Source of the DNA: Candidatus Aminicenantes bacterium | GTDB taxonomy: Bacteria > Acidobacteriota > Aminicenantia > UBA2199 | Length of the DNA stretch: 32,094 bases | Assembly: GCA_011049425.1 (NCBI GenBank) | Contig: DSBM01000014.1 | Location: forward strand, 1-32,094 | Direction of reading: 5' to 3' | Part shown: in pieces, positions 4,948 through 32,094 of the stretch | Layout of the letters: every line of letters starts with the position of its first letter | Position numbering within the stretch: the first letter of the stretch is position 1 | Translations under genes and position numbers: made by a program | Notes under the pieces: model-generated | What the model was told of the DNA's origin: nothing | Seen by the model: only the letters and a program-made list of their open reading frames with translations | Database searches by the model: none

Positions 4948-4987
4948 CTCCTTTACAGGAAAAGGAGGACCGGGCCGATTCTCCTTT
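4948..4987 (-). promoter_or_regulatory. Translational expression platform of the wtpA riboswitch
   Basis: Reading the minus strand, AAAGGAG occurs twice: as the 3' part of the aptamer (4987-4981) and as the wtpA ribosome binding site (4954-4948). Between them lies CTCCTTT (4967-4961), complementary to both. Pairing with the second copy gives a perfect 7-bp hairpin with a six-base loop that hides the binding site. Pairing with the first copy would dismantle the aptamer P1 stem and free the site. This is a readable two-state switch. The inferred direction is OFF when the aptamer is closed by its ligand. Confidence 0.75.
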
Positions 4988-5094
4988 CCACGGCGGTTTT
5001 GAGCCGCCTTCCGGGAGGCCGGAGGATTTCTCCACCGACCCTGTCGGCCCCAACGGCATGGCCTGTACCGGCCGCAGCCGCGAGGCTCGGAGAA
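4979..5094 (-). promoter_or_regulatory. Moco/Tuco-family riboswitch aptamer
   Basis: The minus-strand leader contains, in order, CTCCGAGCC (5092-5084), GGCCTCCCGG and GTGGAAAGGAG (ending 4981), which I recognise as conserved segments of the molybdenum/tungsten-cofactor RNA. Stem P1 pairs 5094-5089 with 4984-4979 (6 bp). P2 pairs GGCCGG (5073-5068) with CCGGCC (5022-5017). Between them are hairpins CCGAC/GTCGG and GGAG/CTCC, and a GGCGG/CCGCC hairpin with a long loop lies at 5008-4992. It precedes a tungstate importer plus moeA and moaA, the known context of this family. Whether it is the Moco form or the P3-less Tuco form needs covariance-model scoring. Confidence 0.82.
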
Positions 5095-5101
5095 CAACCC
5101 C

Positions 5102-5130
5102 ATTCTACACTGCCCTGCTTTTTCCGTCAA
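5102..5130 (-). promoter_or_regulatory. Sigma70-type promoter of the wtp-moe-moa operon
   Basis: On the minus strand TTGACG (5130-5125) and TAGAAT (5107-5102) are separated by exactly 17 bases. Transcription would start near 5095, immediately before the riboswitch P1 stem, so the aptamer is the first thing transcribed. Confidence 0.75.
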
Positions 5131-22492: not shown

Positions 22493-22659
22493 ATGTCAAC
22501 ACCGGATTATTGTGAAGCACCACAACGCAATTCAGTTTTTACATTGGGTAAGCGCACTAAAGAAAAAAATTATTTGATTTAAATAAAATATGTTGAAATT
22601 TTTTTAACTTTCATTAACAATCTCAAGTGGGGAAAAACCAACCAAATGCGGAGGAGTTA
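22493..22659. other. A/T-rich upstream region of the protease gene
   Basis: Bases 22555-22625 are strikingly A/T-rich compared with all neighbouring DNA and hold several -10-like sequences (AAATAT, TATGTT) but no promoter with convincing spacing. GGAGG precedes the protease ATG. No gene seen. Confidence 0.4.
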
Positions 22660-24729
22660 ATGAAACACACAGCCCTTTGGCTGGCGGTCTGCACCCTGGT
22701 ATTCACCCTGGGTCTGCAGACGGCCGACGTACAGAAAGCGCCCACGATCACTGGAAAACCCGCCCTGGTACCCGGCGAGGTCGTCGTCATCTACGACGCG
22801 GCCGTCAAGGACGCGGGAAAATCCGCCTTGATGAAGCGCTACGGCTTGACCAAGAAACGAGACAGTCGCAAAGCCGGAAAATTCTCGGTTTACCATCATG
22901 GGAACCCGAAAGCGATCCTGAAACAACTGAACGCCGAGCCCGGAGTGGTGGTGGCTGAACAGAACGCCTACGCCTACAAGTTCGATGTTCCCAACGATCC
23001 CCTCTACAGTCCGTATCAGTGGCACATGACCAAGATCGGCATGGAATCCGCCTGGGACGTGTCTACCGGTTCCGGCGTGGTGGTGGCCGTAATCGACACC
23101 GGGGTTAAAAAGACCTTGGAAGACCTGGCAGGAACCCAGTTCACGGCGGGGTATGACTTCGTCAACAACGACACGGATCCCACCGATGACGAAGGTCACG
23201 GCTCACATGTCTGCGGCACCATTGCCCAGACCACCAACAACGGCGTGGGCGTGGCGGGAATCGCTTACAACGCCACCATCATGGCCGTCAAGGTATTGAA
23301 CCAGCGCGGCAGCGGCACGTACGATGACATCGCCGACGGCATCATCTGGGCCGCCGACCACGGCGCCCACGTGATCAACCTCAGCCTGGGCGGCTCAAGC
23401 AGCCTGCAAATTCTCGAGGACGCGGTCAACTACGCCTGGAATCAGGGCGTGGTCGTGGTCTGCGCCGCAGGCAATGACGGTGTCAGCACCCCCTTCTATC
23501 CGGCGGCCTATACCAACTCGATTTCAGTCAGCGCCACCACCTACCTGGACACCCTGGCTTCCTATTCCAACTACGGCTCCACCATCGACATCTCCGCCCC
23601 AGGCGGCGACAGCGGCGACAACAACGGCGACGGTTACGATGACATGATCCTGCAGAACACCTTTTCCCGCAACAGTGAGGGCTACTACTTCTATGCCGGA
23701 ACCTCCATGGCTTCGCCTCACGTGGCCGGCGTGGCCGCGCTGGTGAAATCCGCCAACCCATCCTTGTCCAACAGCCAGGTACGGTCCATCCTGGAATCGA
23801 GCGCAAAAGACCTCGGCGCCTCCGGCTGGGACTCCTATTTCGGCCACGGTCGCGTGGATGCCTATGCCGCGGTACTGGCGGCCGGTGGTTCTACGCCGGA
23901 AAATCAGCCGCCATCCGCCGGCTTTACCTTTTCCGTGGCGGACCTGAACGTCTCCTTTACCGACACCAGCAGCGACAGCGACGGTACCGTGGAAGCCTGG
24001 GCCTGGGATTTCGGCGACGGTGCCACTTCCAGCGCACAGAATCCGGAACACAACTACGCCGCGGCGGGAACATACTCCGTTGGCCTGACCGTTACCGACA
24101 ACGACGGCGCCACCGACACGGTTATTCACAACGTCACGGTCGAATCTACGACACCGGAAAACCAGCCGCCTTCCGCGGCCTTTACCTTTGCCGTGGCCGA
24201 CCTGAACGTCACCTTTACCGACGCCAGCAGCGACAGCGACGGTACCGTGGAGGCCTGGGCCTGGAACTTCGGCGACGGCGCCACTTCCAGCGCACAAAAT
24301 CCGGAACACAACTACGCCGCGGCGGGAACATACTCCGTTGGCCTGACCGTTACCGACAACGAAGGCGCCACCGACACAGTGATACATGATGTCACGGTGT
24401 CTTCCGGCGGCCCCAATCCCACCATGCACGTGGCGGATATTTCCATGAGTATCACAAAGCGCGGTCGCAACTACGCCGCCACAGCCGTGGTTACGGTTGT
24501 GGACGCCGGAAATTCACCAATCTCTAATGCCACGGTTACCGTTTCCTGGAGCGGCGTGGTCAGTGGCAGCGCCAGCGGCGTGACCGGAACGGACGGCCGG
24601 GTGTCCTTTACCTCGGGCAACGTCAAGTCATCCGGACCGTTTACGGTGACGGTTACGGACGTGGCCCACACTGTATACGACTACGATCCCGCCGCCAACG
24701 TGGAAACCACCGACAGCATCACTTACTGA
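22660..24729 (+). CDS. Secreted subtilisin-like serine protease with two PKD domains
   Basis: Extracellular protease for protein degradation. Signal peptide (1 to about 20), an I9-type propeptide/chaperone (about 35-110; VPGEVVVIYDAAVKDA to VVVAEQNAYAY), then an S8 domain with the triad Asp146 (AVIDTGV), His180 (GHGSHVCGT) and Ser349 (GTSMASPHVAG), and oxyanion Asn272 (AAGND). Two near-identical PKD domains follow (about 413-585), each with AWAWDFGDG or AWAWNFGDG, and a C-terminal Ig-like domain (DAGNSPISNATVTVSWSGVV). There is no cell-wall or type IX sorting signal. The ATG at 22660 has GGAGG upstream; the longer frame from 22627 is less likely. A strong terminator follows directly. Confidence 0.95.
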   Translation: MKHTALWLAVCTLVFTLGLQTADVQKAPTITGKPALVPGEVVVIYDAAVKDAGKSALMKRYGLTKKRDSRKAGKFSVYHHGNPKAILKQLNAEPGVVVAEQNAYAYKFDVPNDPLYSPYQWHMTKIGMESAWDVSTGSGVVVAVIDTGVKKTLEDLAGTQFTAGYDFVNNDTDPTDDEGHGSHVCGTIAQTTNNGVGVAGIAYNATIMAVKVLNQRGSGTYDDIADGIIWAADHGAHVINLSLGGSSSLQILEDAVNYAWNQGVVVVCAAGNDGVSTPFYPAAYTNSISVSATTYLDTLASYSNYGSTIDISAPGGDSGDNNGDGYDDMILQNTFSRNSEGYYFYAGTSMASPHVAGVAALVKSANPSLSNSQVRSILESSAKDLGASGWDSYFGHGRVDAYAAVLAAGGSTPENQPPSAGFTFSVADLNVSFTDTSSDSDGTVEAWAWDFGDGATSSAQNPEHNYAAAGTYSVGLTVTDNDGATDTVIHNVTVESTTPENQPPSAAFTFAVADLNVTFTDASSDSDGTVEAWAWNFGDGATSSAQNPEHNYAAAGTYSVGLTVTDNEGATDTVIHDVTVSSGGPNPTMHVADISMSITKRGRNYAATAVVTVVDAGNSPISNATVTVSWSGVVSGSASGVTGTDGRVSFTSGNVKSSGPFTVTVTDVAHTVYDYDPAANVETTDSITY
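23896..24411 (+). repeat. Tandem PKD-encoding direct repeat, 258-bp period
   Basis: The units starting at 23896 and 24154 are near-identical at the DNA level as well as the protein level, including long runs of silent sites (for example the block encoding NPEHNYAAAGTYSVGLTVTD). Only a few codons differ (D/N before FGDG, D/E before GATDT). This fits a recent duplication or gene conversion. Confidence 0.85.
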
Positions 24730-24780: not shown

Positions 24781-24858
24781 AGAGGAGAGTTGGAAAGTTG
24801 AGGAGTTGGAGAGTTGAATAGGGAAGAAGTTGAGCAGGTTTAAAAAGTTATTTACTTT
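24781..24858. repeat. 8-bp-periodic purine-rich arm (left arm of element copy A)
   Basis: GTTG recurs at 24789, 24797, 24805, 24813 and 24829, always in an 8-bp register (GTTGGAAA, GTTGAGGA, GTTGGAGA, GTTGAATA). It begins at the last T of the terminator. The end, GGTTTAAAAAGTTATTTACTTT, matches the left part of the tract at the window start. Confidence 0.75.
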
Positions 24859-24870
24859 GGATCTATTACG

Positions 24871-25185
24871 TTTTGTGTGGGTAAACGCGCATTGATCATC
24901 TGCGGGACGTTGTTAAGACGAGTACCCGCAGGGCATAAAGCATAAGTGAACGTAAACGTAGGTTCCGGGGACCCGTGGTCTGAGACAGGATGGTCGGCTG
25001 AGGGGTACACCCCGAAGACGAAAGATGGCCGCGGCACCATCCCAAACAGCCACCGTGGTCATCTTAAGACGTCGAAGACCGTAATGGGTCTGAACCGAAG
25101 TGGTGAGCGGTGATTTGTGCCCGAAAGGGTACTCTCCTGCACCCTTTCCCTTTTTTAATTAAGAACAATCCCCAAACCCACAAAA
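24871..25185 (+). ncRNA. Structured non-coding element, copy A (candidate mobile RNA)
   Basis: No plausible protein. The RNA can form nested helices: 24961-24965 with 25092-25096 (GGTTC/GAACC), 24970-24974 with 25086-25090 (GACCC/GGGTC), 24977-24980 with 25077-25080 (GGTC/GACC), 24988-24994 with 25036-25042 (GGATGGT/ACCATCC), and hairpin 25002-25013. A GCCC-GAAA-GGGT hairpin lies at 25119-25130. A 5' stem pairs 24876-24883 with 24923-24930. The ends carry an imperfect inverted repeat, TTTTGTGTGGGT (24871-24882) and ACCCACAAAA (25176-25185). It shares its 5' third with 31977-32094. It resembles ORF-less HEARO/IscB omegaRNA elements in size, structure and dispersal, but I cannot confirm the family. 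A group II intron remnant is the alternative. Confidence 0.65.
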
Positions 25186-25196
25186 AATGGAAGAGA

Positions 25197-25245
25197 ACCT
25201 TTACTTTCGACTTTAGACTTTCGACTACCGGCCTCCTGCCTCCTG
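25197..25245. repeat. 7-bp-periodic arm (right arm of element copy A)
   Basis: Seven in-phase heptamers: CTTTACT-type, CTTTCGA (25204), CTTTAGA (25211), CTTTCGA (25218), CTACCGG (25225), CCTCCTG (25232) and CCTCCTG (25239). The same units occur at 26-207. The last three heptamers encode, on the minus strand, the final residues and stop codon of the DUF302 gene. Confidence 0.75.
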
Positions 25246-25614
25246 CACCATTCGCAACATGGCAGACTCCACTTCCGCCGCGACCCGGGCCAGATCCTGG
25301 TCTTTGGACAATGCCGCCAGCATGGGTTGCGGACGGATAAAACCGATCCGGGTTTTCCCCATCTCCGTATAAACGGAAATCCGGCAGGGCAAGGCCATGT
25401 TCAGGCGCATGTCCACCGACAGAACCCCGGCCGCATGGACGGGACTGCACACTTCAAACACCCTGCATTCCTCAATGAAATCCAGGCCGCGCTTCCTGAA
25501 GCTGTTTCCCAGGTCATGAATATGCAGGACCCCGAATTGATTTCTTTCGACCGCGGTTTCAAGATCCGCCGCCGCCTGTTCAAAGGATTTCTCTGATTCA
25601 ATGATATGGTACAT
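25225..25614 (-). CDS. DUF302 domain protein
   Basis: A 129-residue cytoplasmic protein with the DUF302 pattern: an N-terminal helix SFEQAAADLETAVERNQFGV then a strand, the middle VFEVCSPVHAAGVLSVDMRL with NMALPCRISVYTEMGKTRIG, and PQPMLAAL. The conserved cysteines of VCSPV and LPCR are present; the family is thought to bind small ligands or metal, but its function is unknown. GAGGTG precedes the ATG. Its C-terminus (QEAGGR) is encoded by the heptamer repeat, so the repeat has replaced or grown into the original end of the gene. Confidence 0.85.
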   Translation of the reverse strand: MYHIIESEKSFEQAAADLETAVERNQFGVLHIHDLGNSFRKRGLDFIEECRVFEVCSPVHAAGVLSVDMRLNMALPCRISVYTEMGKTRIGFIRPQPMLAALSKDQDLARVAAEVESAMLRMVQEAGGR

Positions 25615-28651: not shown

Positions 28652-31600
28652 CTATTTGTCAATCACATCAAGGAGAACGCGGATGGCGGCTTCGAGTTGC
28701 TGGTCGCGGCCTCTGTCAACAAAGCCGGGTATGTTTTTTACCATCACGTCCGGTTCGGTCTGGTTGTTTTCCAGCCATTCGCCGGCCTTGTTCCTGGCGC
28801 TCACGGGGATCGTGCCCCACAGGATGGTGCCGTTCTGCAGCATTTCCCAACCGGCAAAGCTGCAGGTGCCGGGTACGGGCATGCCGACCAGTTTGCCGAT
28901 ACCCAGGTCCTTATAAGCACAGGCAAAGCAGTGGCCGTCACTGTAGTTGGCCTCGTTGACCAGGGCCACGTGGGGCCGGGTCCAGCGATAATTGGGCTCA
29001 TAACCCAGGTCGCGCTGCTCAATGGCGTACGTCATGAAACGCTCGCCGGAAAGAAACATGGTGATGTCTCCCACCAGGTCGCCGCCACCGTTAAAGCGGG
29101 TATCCACGATCAGCCCTTCACGGTCGAAGTACTTGCCCATGGCTTTATCATACACATGACGATAAGAGCCGTCGCTCATGCCGGGAATGTGCACATAGCC
29201 CAAACGACCGTTTCCGGATTTTTCCACCTCTTGCTCGTTTAAACGCACCCAGCGCTCGTACAGCAGGGTTCTTTCCTCTTTGGATGAAATCGGGATCACG
29301 ACCAGGTCCGTGGTTTTCCCTGTCCCGGGGTCAAGTAGACTCAAGGCCGTACGCTTTTCCGCCAGGCGGTTGAGATAGCGCGCGCTGTCCGTTTCAGAGG
29401 AAACGGCAATTCCGTTGATCGCGGTGATCACCATACCGGGTTTGACATTGAAACCGGCACGATCAAGGGGCCCGTTGCGCATTACCTCGGTGATGCGGAT
29501 CCCTTCCCCGCTGTAATTGGTATCGATAAAGATCCCCAGCGAGGCTGTCTCGTCTGCATGGGGATTCTGCGCCATCGCGCGGGCGCCGCAATGAGAGACA
29601 TTCAACTCCCCCAGCATTTCCGAAAGCAGTTCAACGAATTCGCGGTCATTACCGATGCCGGCCAGCTTGGGGGCGTAAGCGATTTTCATGGCTTCCCAAT
29701 CCACGCCGTGAAACCCGGATTCGTAGAACATGGAGCGGGTCTTTTCCCATACGTGGCCAAACATCTCTTTTCTTTCAGCGGTCTCATCAAAGGTGATCTC
29801 TCCCCCGACGTGCACCGGTTTTTTTGACTTCTTTTCCGGATCCAGTTTAAAAATGTTCCCGTCCGCCAGCAAAAACAGGCTCTCGCTTTCGGCATTCCGT
29901 TGCAGTTGGCCCGAGCGCGCCCCCAGGTCCAGAATCTTCTCTGTTTCACGCGAACGCAATTTCGTGGCCCAGAGGTTCATGCCTTTCTCGAAACGCGCCA
30001 GGTAATAGAGGGTTTCACCGTCCTTTGACAGCACCGCGTCACCCAGGAAAGAGGAATGAATGGTCAGGCGTTTTCTGCGTTCCCTCATCCCCTCCCATTC
30101 AAAGCGGAGAGGCTGGATCGTCTCTTCCGGCTTTTCTTTTTTCTTTTTGTCTTTTTTGTCGCTCTTTTCCTCGTCCCCTTTGTCTTTTTCTTCCAGTTCT
30201 GTAAACAAACCGAATTCATCCTTGGAGAGGTTGGCGCGTTCCCATGCCTTGCGGGTAAAGTACAAACCGTACACATCCCGCTGCCGGGCACCAGAGTTGG
30301 CGTAGGCGCGCAGTCCGTGGCGATTGCTGAACCAGAGCATCAATTCACCTTTGCCCGCCCAGCTGGGGCGCATATCGTGATAGCCGCTTTCGGTCAGGTT
30401 GACCATCTCCTGCGAACCGTCCGCTTTCAACAACACGACTTCGGTATTGGCCAGGCGCGGCGTGTATTCCGCCAGCAGCCAGCGACTGTCCGGACTCCAT
30501 TGGAAATACTGGTCGCCGTCACCCATGTACACCAGGTTGTTTGCAGAAAGCAGGGTACGGGTCTCTTTGCTTTTCAGATCCATGACTTTCAATTCCCGCT
30601 TGTTCTCGATAAACGCCATGGACTTGCCGTCGGGAGAGATCAGCGGCATGTAATTGTCCGCTTCGGTAACCAGTAACGCTTCTTCCTCAAGAATGGTCGC
30701 TGCGTGGAAAAACTTCTCCTGCGGATCGCTCAATCTGGCGCGGTAAATCCCCCAGCGCCCGTTGCGTTCACCGGCATACACGATTCCCTTGCCGTCGGGG
30801 GTGAAAGAAACAAAACGCTCCGCCCCCGGAGTGGTTGTGATGCGTCGCACCATTTTGCGTTCGGTTGAGGTAGCGAAAACCTCTCCCCGGACCACGTAAG
30901 CCATCTCTTTCCCATCCGGAGAAACCGCCATCTCACTGACCTTGCCCTGAACGGGGATCAGGCGCCCGTCGTTCTCTTTGCTGGAAACAACCACGCGAAC
31001 CATCAACTTTTTCGGCTCGGCGCCGGGTTTCTGCACATAGAGGTCACCATGATGGGTGAAACACAATGTTCCCTGGTTGTCGATGCTGAGGAACCGCACC
31101 GGGTGGCCGGAAAACACGGTGACCGCCTCGTTTTTTTGCGGTTGCGCCAGTTCGAGACGATGTACGTTAAAACTGCCGCTTTCTTCGCTGAGGTAATAAA
31201 TGCTTTTTTGATCCGGAGCGAATACGGGGTTGCGATCCTCAAAAGGGGATGTGGTTAAACGCATATGATGATTTTTTGCTTTGTCGTACAACCAGATATC
31301 ACGGGTGACGGCGGAACGGTGATGCTTGCGCCAGTAATTCTCACCGCCTTTTTTGTCGATGTAAATCATCCGGGAACCGTCAGGGCTGACCTGGACCTCC
31401 TCTGCGGGGAAGGTCCAGACCTGTTCCACTCGGCCGCCGTTGGCGGGGACCTGGTACAACTCGGGCAAGTAGGTGGTGGGAAACCCGCGGTGCTTGAAAT
31501 CATCCAGGCGCGCCGCGCCGAACAGCACTTGTTTCCCATCCGCCGTGAACGCGTAGGGAACTTCGTCCGCCGAATGCCGGGTCAGGCGTACGGCTTCACC

Positions 31601-31891
31601 CCCGGCCGCGGCTACCACAAACACATCCAGATTGCCGTGACGGTCGGAAGCAAAGGCGATTTGCTCTCCGTCCGGGCTCCATACCGGGTGGTATTCATCA
31701 GCTTCGTGAATGGTCAGAATCCGCGCGTCTCCGCCGGAACCGGACACCAGGTAGAGATCGCCGTGACTGCTGAATACGATCCGCTCTCCGTCGGGTGAGA
31801 TCGCGGCCCAACGAATCCATTGGGGACTGACTTCGGGGAACATCAGTGACGCCGCAACAAACATACACAGCACCAAAAGAACTTTTTTCAT
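28652..31891 (-). CDS. Secreted tricorn-protease homologue (S41 family)
   Basis: A 1079-residue exopeptidase-like protein that would trim peptides. Signal peptide (MKKVLLVLCMFVAASLMF), a beta-propeller of PD40/WD40-like repeats (PVWSPDGEQIAFASDRHGNL and many ISPDGK/FTPDGK copies), a second propeller, and a Lys/Glu-rich linker (DKGDEEKSDKKDKKKKEK). The C-terminal part has a tricorn C1-like region, a PDZ domain (about 785-865) and the S41 core. Catalytic residues align with tricorn by motif: Ser-His at 766-767 (NVSHCG), nucleophile Ser984 (ANYSDGH) and Glu1046 (NQTEPDV). Unlike archaeal tricorn it is exported. The ATG at 31891 has AAGAGG; the open frame to 32077 crosses the repeat element. Probably works with the secreted subtilisin on extracellular protein. 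Confidence 0.93.
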   Translation of the reverse strand: MKKVLLVLCMFVAASLMFPEVSPQWIRWAAISPDGERIVFSSHGDLYLVSGSGGDARILTIHEADEYHPVWSPDGEQIAFASDRHGNLDVFVVAAAGGEAVRLTRHSADEVPYAFTADGKQVLFGAARLDDFKHRGFPTTYLPELYQVPANGGRVEQVWTFPAEEVQVSPDGSRMIYIDKKGGENYWRKHHRSAVTRDIWLYDKAKNHHMRLTTSPFEDRNPVFAPDQKSIYYLSEESGSFNVHRLELAQPQKNEAVTVFSGHPVRFLSIDNQGTLCFTHHGDLYVQKPGAEPKKLMVRVVVSSKENDGRLIPVQGKVSEMAVSPDGKEMAYVVRGEVFATSTERKMVRRITTTPGAERFVSFTPDGKGIVYAGERNGRWGIYRARLSDPQEKFFHAATILEEEALLVTEADNYMPLISPDGKSMAFIENKRELKVMDLKSKETRTLLSANNLVYMGDGDQYFQWSPDSRWLLAEYTPRLANTEVVLLKADGSQEMVNLTESGYHDMRPSWAGKGELMLWFSNRHGLRAYANSGARQRDVYGLYFTRKAWERANLSKDEFGLFTELEEKDKGDEEKSDKKDKKKKEKPEETIQPLRFEWEGMRERRKRLTIHSSFLGDAVLSKDGETLYYLARFEKGMNLWATKLRSRETEKILDLGARSGQLQRNAESESLFLLADGNIFKLDPEKKSKKPVHVGGEITFDETAERKEMFGHVWEKTRSMFYESGFHGVDWEAMKIAYAPKLAGIGNDREFVELLSEMLGELNVSHCGARAMAQNPHADETASLGIFIDTNYSGEGIRITEVMRNGPLDRAGFNVKPGMVITAINGIAVSSETDSARYLNRLAEKRTALSLLDPGTGKTTDLVVIPISSKEERTLLYERWVRLNEQEVEKSGNGRLGYVHIPGMSDGSYRHVYDKAMGKYFDREGLIVDTRFNGGGDLVGDITMFLSGERFMTYAIEQRDLGYEPNYRWTRPHVALVNEANYSDGHCFACAYKDLGIGKLVGMPVPGTCSFAGWEMLQNGTILWGTIPVSARNKAGEWLENNQTEPDVMVKNIPGFVDRGRDQQLEAAIRVLLDVIDK

Positions 31892-31941: not shown

Positions 31942-31966
31942 AAGGTTGGAAAGTTGAAAAGTTTGG
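31942..31966. repeat. 8-bp-periodic arm (left arm of element copy B)
   Basis: GTTGGAAA, GTTGAAAA and GTTTGGAT in 8-bp register, then GGATCTCTTACG, which matches GGATCTATTACG in front of copy A. Confidence 0.7.
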
Positions 31967-31976
31967 ATCTCTTACG

Positions 31977-32094
31977 TTTTGTGTGGGTAAGCACACATTG
32001 GTGATAGGCGAGATTGTGAGGAATGAGTACCCATAGGGCATACATACCCGCAGGGCATAAAGCATAAGCGAACGCAAACGGCAGGTTCCGGGGC
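31977..32094 (+). ncRNA. Structured non-coding element, copy B, cut by the window end
   Basis: Starts with the same TTTTGTGTGGGTAA as copy A, has a different interior of about 35 bases, then the shared GAGTACCC...GGGCATAAAGCATAAG and GCAGGTTCCGGGG. The sequence stops at the point where the long-range helices of copy A begin. The GTGGGTA 5' strand can pair with TACCCATA or TACCCGCA. It contains an internal 17-bp tandem duplication (32028-32044 and 32045-32061) that copy A lacks. Confidence 0.65.

Follow-up and report, generated by a model that had tools for sequence, protein, structure and literature searches.

The window that we analyzed (32,094 nucleotides) is an entire contig from the 171-contig, 2.62-Mb draft genome of a Candidatus Aminicenantes bacterium (G000, contig C14). 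It includes an intergenic element of 341 bp at 24859-25199, flanked by a subtilase-PKD gene (22627-24729) and, on the minus strand, by a DUF302 gene (25225-25614). The limits of the element come from aligned copies and from a flanking 8-bp direct repeat. The original prediction was of a dispersed structured RNA element with no protein, between a protease gene and a DUF302 gene, at 24871-25185. This was right as to the neighboring genes and the kind of element (about 48 copies, with covariation and no open reading frame), and the alignment of copies moves the limits outward.

The window copy is a complete insertion, with both ends, an exact target duplication, and no conserved open reading frame. 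The 8-bp sequence TTTACTTT is present at 24851-24858 and again, as an exact match, at 25200-25207. Between these are the left terminal inverted repeat (GGATCTATTACGTTTTGTGTGGGT, 24859-24882) and the right one (ACCCACAAAAAATGGAAGAGAACC, 25176-25199), both identified from the alignment of copies. These 24-bp repeats are imperfect, as predicted (79% complementary), and they turn out to be transposon ends. Next to them are two subterminal segments, also from the alignment: the left one (24883-24919) varies between subfamilies, and the right one (25135-25175) has a run of T.

The interior is described on the plus strand. The 5' arm of the closing stem (GAGTACCC and GGGCATAAA, 24920-24939) pairs with the 3' arm at 25114-25134, which includes the GAAA-capped sequence that had been predicted (GTGCCCGAAAGGGTAC). 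The 5' arm contains a 17-nt unit, TACCCAGAGGGCATACA, which is present one to three times per element and differs in number among copies; its reverse complement may recur in the 3' arm of other copies. The structured RNA core spans 24930-25125, based on a covariance-model match (65 bits, E = 4e-13), covariation, and strand asymmetry. Within the core, the most conserved internal module has a 5' strand (AAGTGAACGTAAACGTAGG, 24944-24962) and a 3' strand (CCGAAGTGGTGAGCG, 25095-25109) that are both near-invariant across genera. A small side hairpin (GGGGTACACCCC, 25002-25013) is missing from some subfamilies, and the apical stem (AAGATGGCCGCGG / CCGTGGTCATCTT, 25022-25065) has compensatory changes between subfamilies.

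As predicted, the element contains no reading frame of note. The six frames have 2-8 stops, and the longest stop-free run is 81 codons; these counts rule out decayed coding sequence. We also found no promoter or terminator in the element by consensus.

A second copy lies at 31965-32094 on the plus strand, with one extra 17-nt unit, and is 73% identical to the first over 134 columns. It had been described as a recurrence of the 5' third, at 31977-32094. The copy is real, but it is a full copy that is cut by the contig end. The start of a tricorn-like protease gene (28652-31891, minus strand; PD40 repeats, Tricorn_C1, PDZ, and peptidase S41) faces this copy. Elsewhere in the window, we noticed a molybdenum/tungsten cofactor riboswitch at 4965-5104 on the minus strand (RF01055, 64.3 bits).

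Copies, ends, and insertion sites

A search with 24845-25200 of the window found 45 matches in its own genome. Pattern searches of this genome identified about 48 left ends and about 48 right ends, and a reversed control identified none. The copies are in unrelated intergenic sites, with no consistent orientation relative to the neighboring genes, and many are broken at contig ends. The "two copies" that were first reported are a large underestimate.

When copies are aligned with their flanks, the ends read GG(A/T)TCT...GTGTGGGT and ACCCACAC...GAGAACC. The flanks are unrelated, except for a strong preference for AAAAGTTG/CAACTTTT beside the ends. Among 12 two-ended copies, six have a target duplication that matches at 7 or more of 8 positions, while 1.1 would be expected with randomly re-paired flanks (p = 0.00025). 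At several two-ended copies (L032, L033, and L176-L178), we saw no direct repeat. Ends that are common to copies, a target duplication of fixed length (8 bp), and the absence of a transposase open reading frame are hallmarks of a MITE, and these three are present here.

The expansion of the element is lineage-specific: there are about 48 copies in G000 versus a few in G001, and 10 copies in G003 versus one each in G010 and G016. A comparison of the window locus with G001, which is the nearest same-genus genome that we compared, matched only repeats, as the two are too diverged.

We also observed dispersed low-complexity tracts with units of 7-9 bp (AGTTGAAA and CTTTCGACTTTAGA in genus g1; AAAAGTGAAAAGTG in genus g6). 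They are present at 24785-24825 and 25200-25230 in the window and at many loci in G000, G001, and the g6 genomes, and they recur in dozens of intergenic regions. Because many element ends adjoin them, these tracts look like insertion targets or footprints.

ISL3-type elements have GG(T/A)TCT... ends and 8-bp target duplications, and the ends and 8-bp duplication of our element resemble theirs. The PF01610 profile matches a single, truncated fragment of an ISL3 transposase in the host genome, at a contig edge; it is not flanked by the element's ends. Nor did we find an autonomous partner with the element's ends (GGTTCTCTTCCATTTTGTGTGGGT) in this draft genome, whose assembly breaks inside copies. 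Since no ISL3 element with matching ends was found, the driver of transposition is a matter of inference.

A conserved core, with and without the transposon shell

The RNA-like core is about 180-200 nt. Starting from a weak match in g6, a sister genus, we identified 20 sequences that are clearly related, and RNAalifold gave 63 pairs for these, 39 of them with compensatory changes. With a covariance model, we found the core in four genera (g1, g3, g6, and g8) of one family of Ca. Aminicenantes, and in 16 of 142 genomes of the class. A search of 396 genomes from the phylum, with strict filters that may lose weak members, found it in no other family. (For the wide searches, we used R1, a model that is based on g6 and is less sensitive to distant members.)

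Across 46 aligned members, 92.7% of the cells pair, versus 66.7% after shuffling, and the covariation score is 0.602, versus 0.168 if shuffled and at most 0.097 if slid. This alignment was fitted to the covariance model and is biased towards it, but MAFFT alignments that were built without the structure agree. The original prediction had pointed to stem-preserving changes between the two copies in the window. A pair of copies is too few to establish such a pattern, but the 46 members confirm stem-preserving change overwhelmingly, with both-sided changes in 53 of the 63 pairs. These results indicate that the fold of the core is maintained by compensatory change across related genera. The strongest conservation is not in the stems but in AAGCGAACGNAAACG and CCGRAGTGGTGAGCG, two strands that face each other and between which tandem and 3x3 sheared G-A loops could form.

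Outside of this family, an exact 20-base core pattern was searched against 84,980 species; besides the Ca. Aminicenantes genome G001 (the MAG Zod_Metabat.571, JAFGNX01), there were three stray matches of 20-21 bases, which is about the 3-4 expected by chance. Plasmid and phage collections and viral contigs gave no match to the element. In the literature, we found no paper that links Aminicenantes with non-coding RNA.

The core and its carrier do not always occur together. The g1 genome contains shells of about 140 bp (L176-L179) that share the element's ends and have a small CCC-AGA-GGG hairpin, but lack the core. Conversely, the core in g6 lacks the g1 ends and has a variable closing stem of its own. 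In G003, the core has a different repeat at its boundaries (AAATATCATT/AATGATATTT) and is often beside another dispersed repeat. Given cores without the g1 terminal repeats and shells without a core, the core is separable from its carrier. That other repeat (CTTTCGCCATCATCTAC...GCGAGAGTAGATAGATGGCTACGCCTGACACT) is directly upstream of most of the g3 copies of the core (in G003 and G016, loci L141, L144, L146-L148, and L152).

In seven g6 species, the core is found in the intergenic region between mfd and cca, in either orientation (L200-L213; these gene names were assigned by eye from translated starts). In the same region, other g6 species have a truncated copy of the core, a possible relic, or none. 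In G030, we noticed a short stem-loop in this region that resembles a miniature of the base of the core. In three species, the g6 core is above a DnaJ-like start. The two copies in G022 are 93.9% identical to each other despite being at different sites, but their identity to copies at the corresponding site in other species is 69-78%, which hints at within-genome homogenization.

Alternative explanations, mechanism, and related systems

An ordinary MITE might account for the element. If so, the fold would simply follow from a long DNA quasi-palindrome that is kept regular by template switching or by DNA-hairpin recognition during transposition, and no RNA would be involved. Terminal inverted repeats, target duplications, and palindromic shells without a core speak for this explanation. 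But the two strands are not equivalent. The plus strand has a minimum free energy of -124.9 kcal/mol (z = -4.14), with 0 of 100 shuffles as good, which bears out the nested complementary segments of the original prediction; on the minus strand, z is -1.59 and 7 of 100 shuffles are as good. Also, among the well-paired columns, 23 have G-U without A-C and 5 have the reverse (p = 0.0009), and the cells number 95 and 25, respectively. Because an A-C on the plus strand is a G-T on the other strand, this excess of G-U indicates that the plus strand has been selected as a single strand. Such selection would fit RNA or single-stranded DNA alike, and it speaks against a plain DNA palindrome. Furthermore, conservation is highest at loop bases that are unpaired or non-canonical, and the core persists in another genus without the terminal repeats. 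We consider an ordinary MITE to be rather unlikely.

Alternatively, the core could be a host non-coding RNA or an intergenic regulatory element (such as an insulator or a processing site), and a MITE would have captured it in the window's genus alone. The shared mfd-cca location in seven g6 species, in both orientations, and the copies above DnaJ-like starts are consistent with this, as is the conservation of the structure in g6 too. However, the core is missing from many genomes within the genus and the family, its copy number ranges from 0 to 48, and its orientation to neighboring genes is inconsistent. We consider this explanation quite improbable. The original prediction offered an ORF-less HEARO/IscB omegaRNA element, a degenerate group II intron, or an unnamed family as candidates. 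The element is dispersed, structured, and ORF-less, as either of the first two would be, but it matches nothing in Rfam, including the HEARO (RF02033) and group II intron models for which a scan had been proposed. At gathering thresholds, the scan gave nothing on the element; at relaxed ones, the window copy and one g6 member had no match at E ≤ 10, and the cores of further loci had none at E ≤ 5. RF02033 did not match several member types even at relaxed thresholds, and group II models (domain V / domain I) did not match either. Terminal inverted repeats with an 8-bp target duplication are the anatomy of a DNA transposon, which argues against a group II intron. A per-copy guide, as in HEARO, is not supported, as the variable left segment is specific to the subfamily and not to the copy. 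The RRXRR/IscB domain was found in 0 of 14 carrier genomes, but control genomes also gave no match. HEARO or a group II intron is very improbable, and among the three candidates, our results support the unnamed family.

We prefer the reading that the element is a MITE-like, non-autonomous, gene-less transposon that carries a new family of structured RNA, with a probability of about 70%. Its anatomy and its conservation have good support; its transposase, its transcription, and the role of the RNA are the parts that we infer. We propose that an ISL3-type transposase, supplied in trans, would move the shell, given the ends (GG(T/A)TCT(C/A)TT) and the 8-bp duplications. The core would be carried at the tip of the hairpin that the shell forms, and because we saw no promoter, we propose that it is transcribed by read-through. 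The conserved base of the core may be a ladder of probable G-A pairs that acts as a protein-binding or tertiary-contact site, for the element or for the host. This role is the least certain step of our proposal. A more specific idea is that the conserved purine module is the binding site of a trans-acting protein, which would employ the RNA in mobility or maintenance, whether as a scaffold, a guide, or a template; we think that this is unlikely to be correct.

If the RNA is active in the spread of the element, then this would be a new kind of RNA-bearing non-autonomous transposon. The core adds a well-supported family of structured RNA that matches nothing in Rfam 15, and it does so for bacteria that are known mostly through metagenomes. 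A single RNA fold can be traced both inside and outside a transposon shell. The reason why elaborate folds are retained in bacterial MITEs can thus be tested, by comparing shells that have the core with shells that lack it.

Of the known systems, ISL3-family insertion sequences resemble our element in their GG(T/A)TCT... ends and 8-bp duplication, but our element has no open reading frame. HEARO/IscB omegaRNA (RF02033; PMC9755519) is also a dispersed structured RNA that is tied to mobile DNA; in contrast, our element has terminal inverted repeats and a target duplication, and it lacks a guide-like 5' end that varies per copy. QMITE2 from Coxiella burnetii is described in the accounts we drew on as a prokaryotic MITE with terminal inverted repeats of 23-29 bp and direct repeats of 7-9 bp, and such MITEs as gene-less, with a stable folded transcript (PMC10969869, PMC5896051). 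The sizes of the repeats and the lack of genes are similar to ours, but the Aminicenantes core forms a family that spans genera and evolves by compensatory change, which those accounts do not claim for such MITEs.

In its behavior, the nearest analogue is the BOX element of Streptococcus pneumoniae (PMC3049150). BOX elements are dispersed intergenic repeats with terminal inverted repeats, target duplications, and a narrow host range. They are modular, with a variable number of internal units, and their terminal repeats pair in a tightly folded transcript (PMC3049150). Our element is also dispersed, with terminal inverted repeats, target duplications, variable internal units, and a narrow host range. 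However, the organisms are unrelated, and we saw no sequence homology (no match in Rfam or in phage or plasmid collections). Unlike BOX, the Aminicenantes core also occurs without its terminal repeats in sister genera, and it has a near-invariant purine-rich module.
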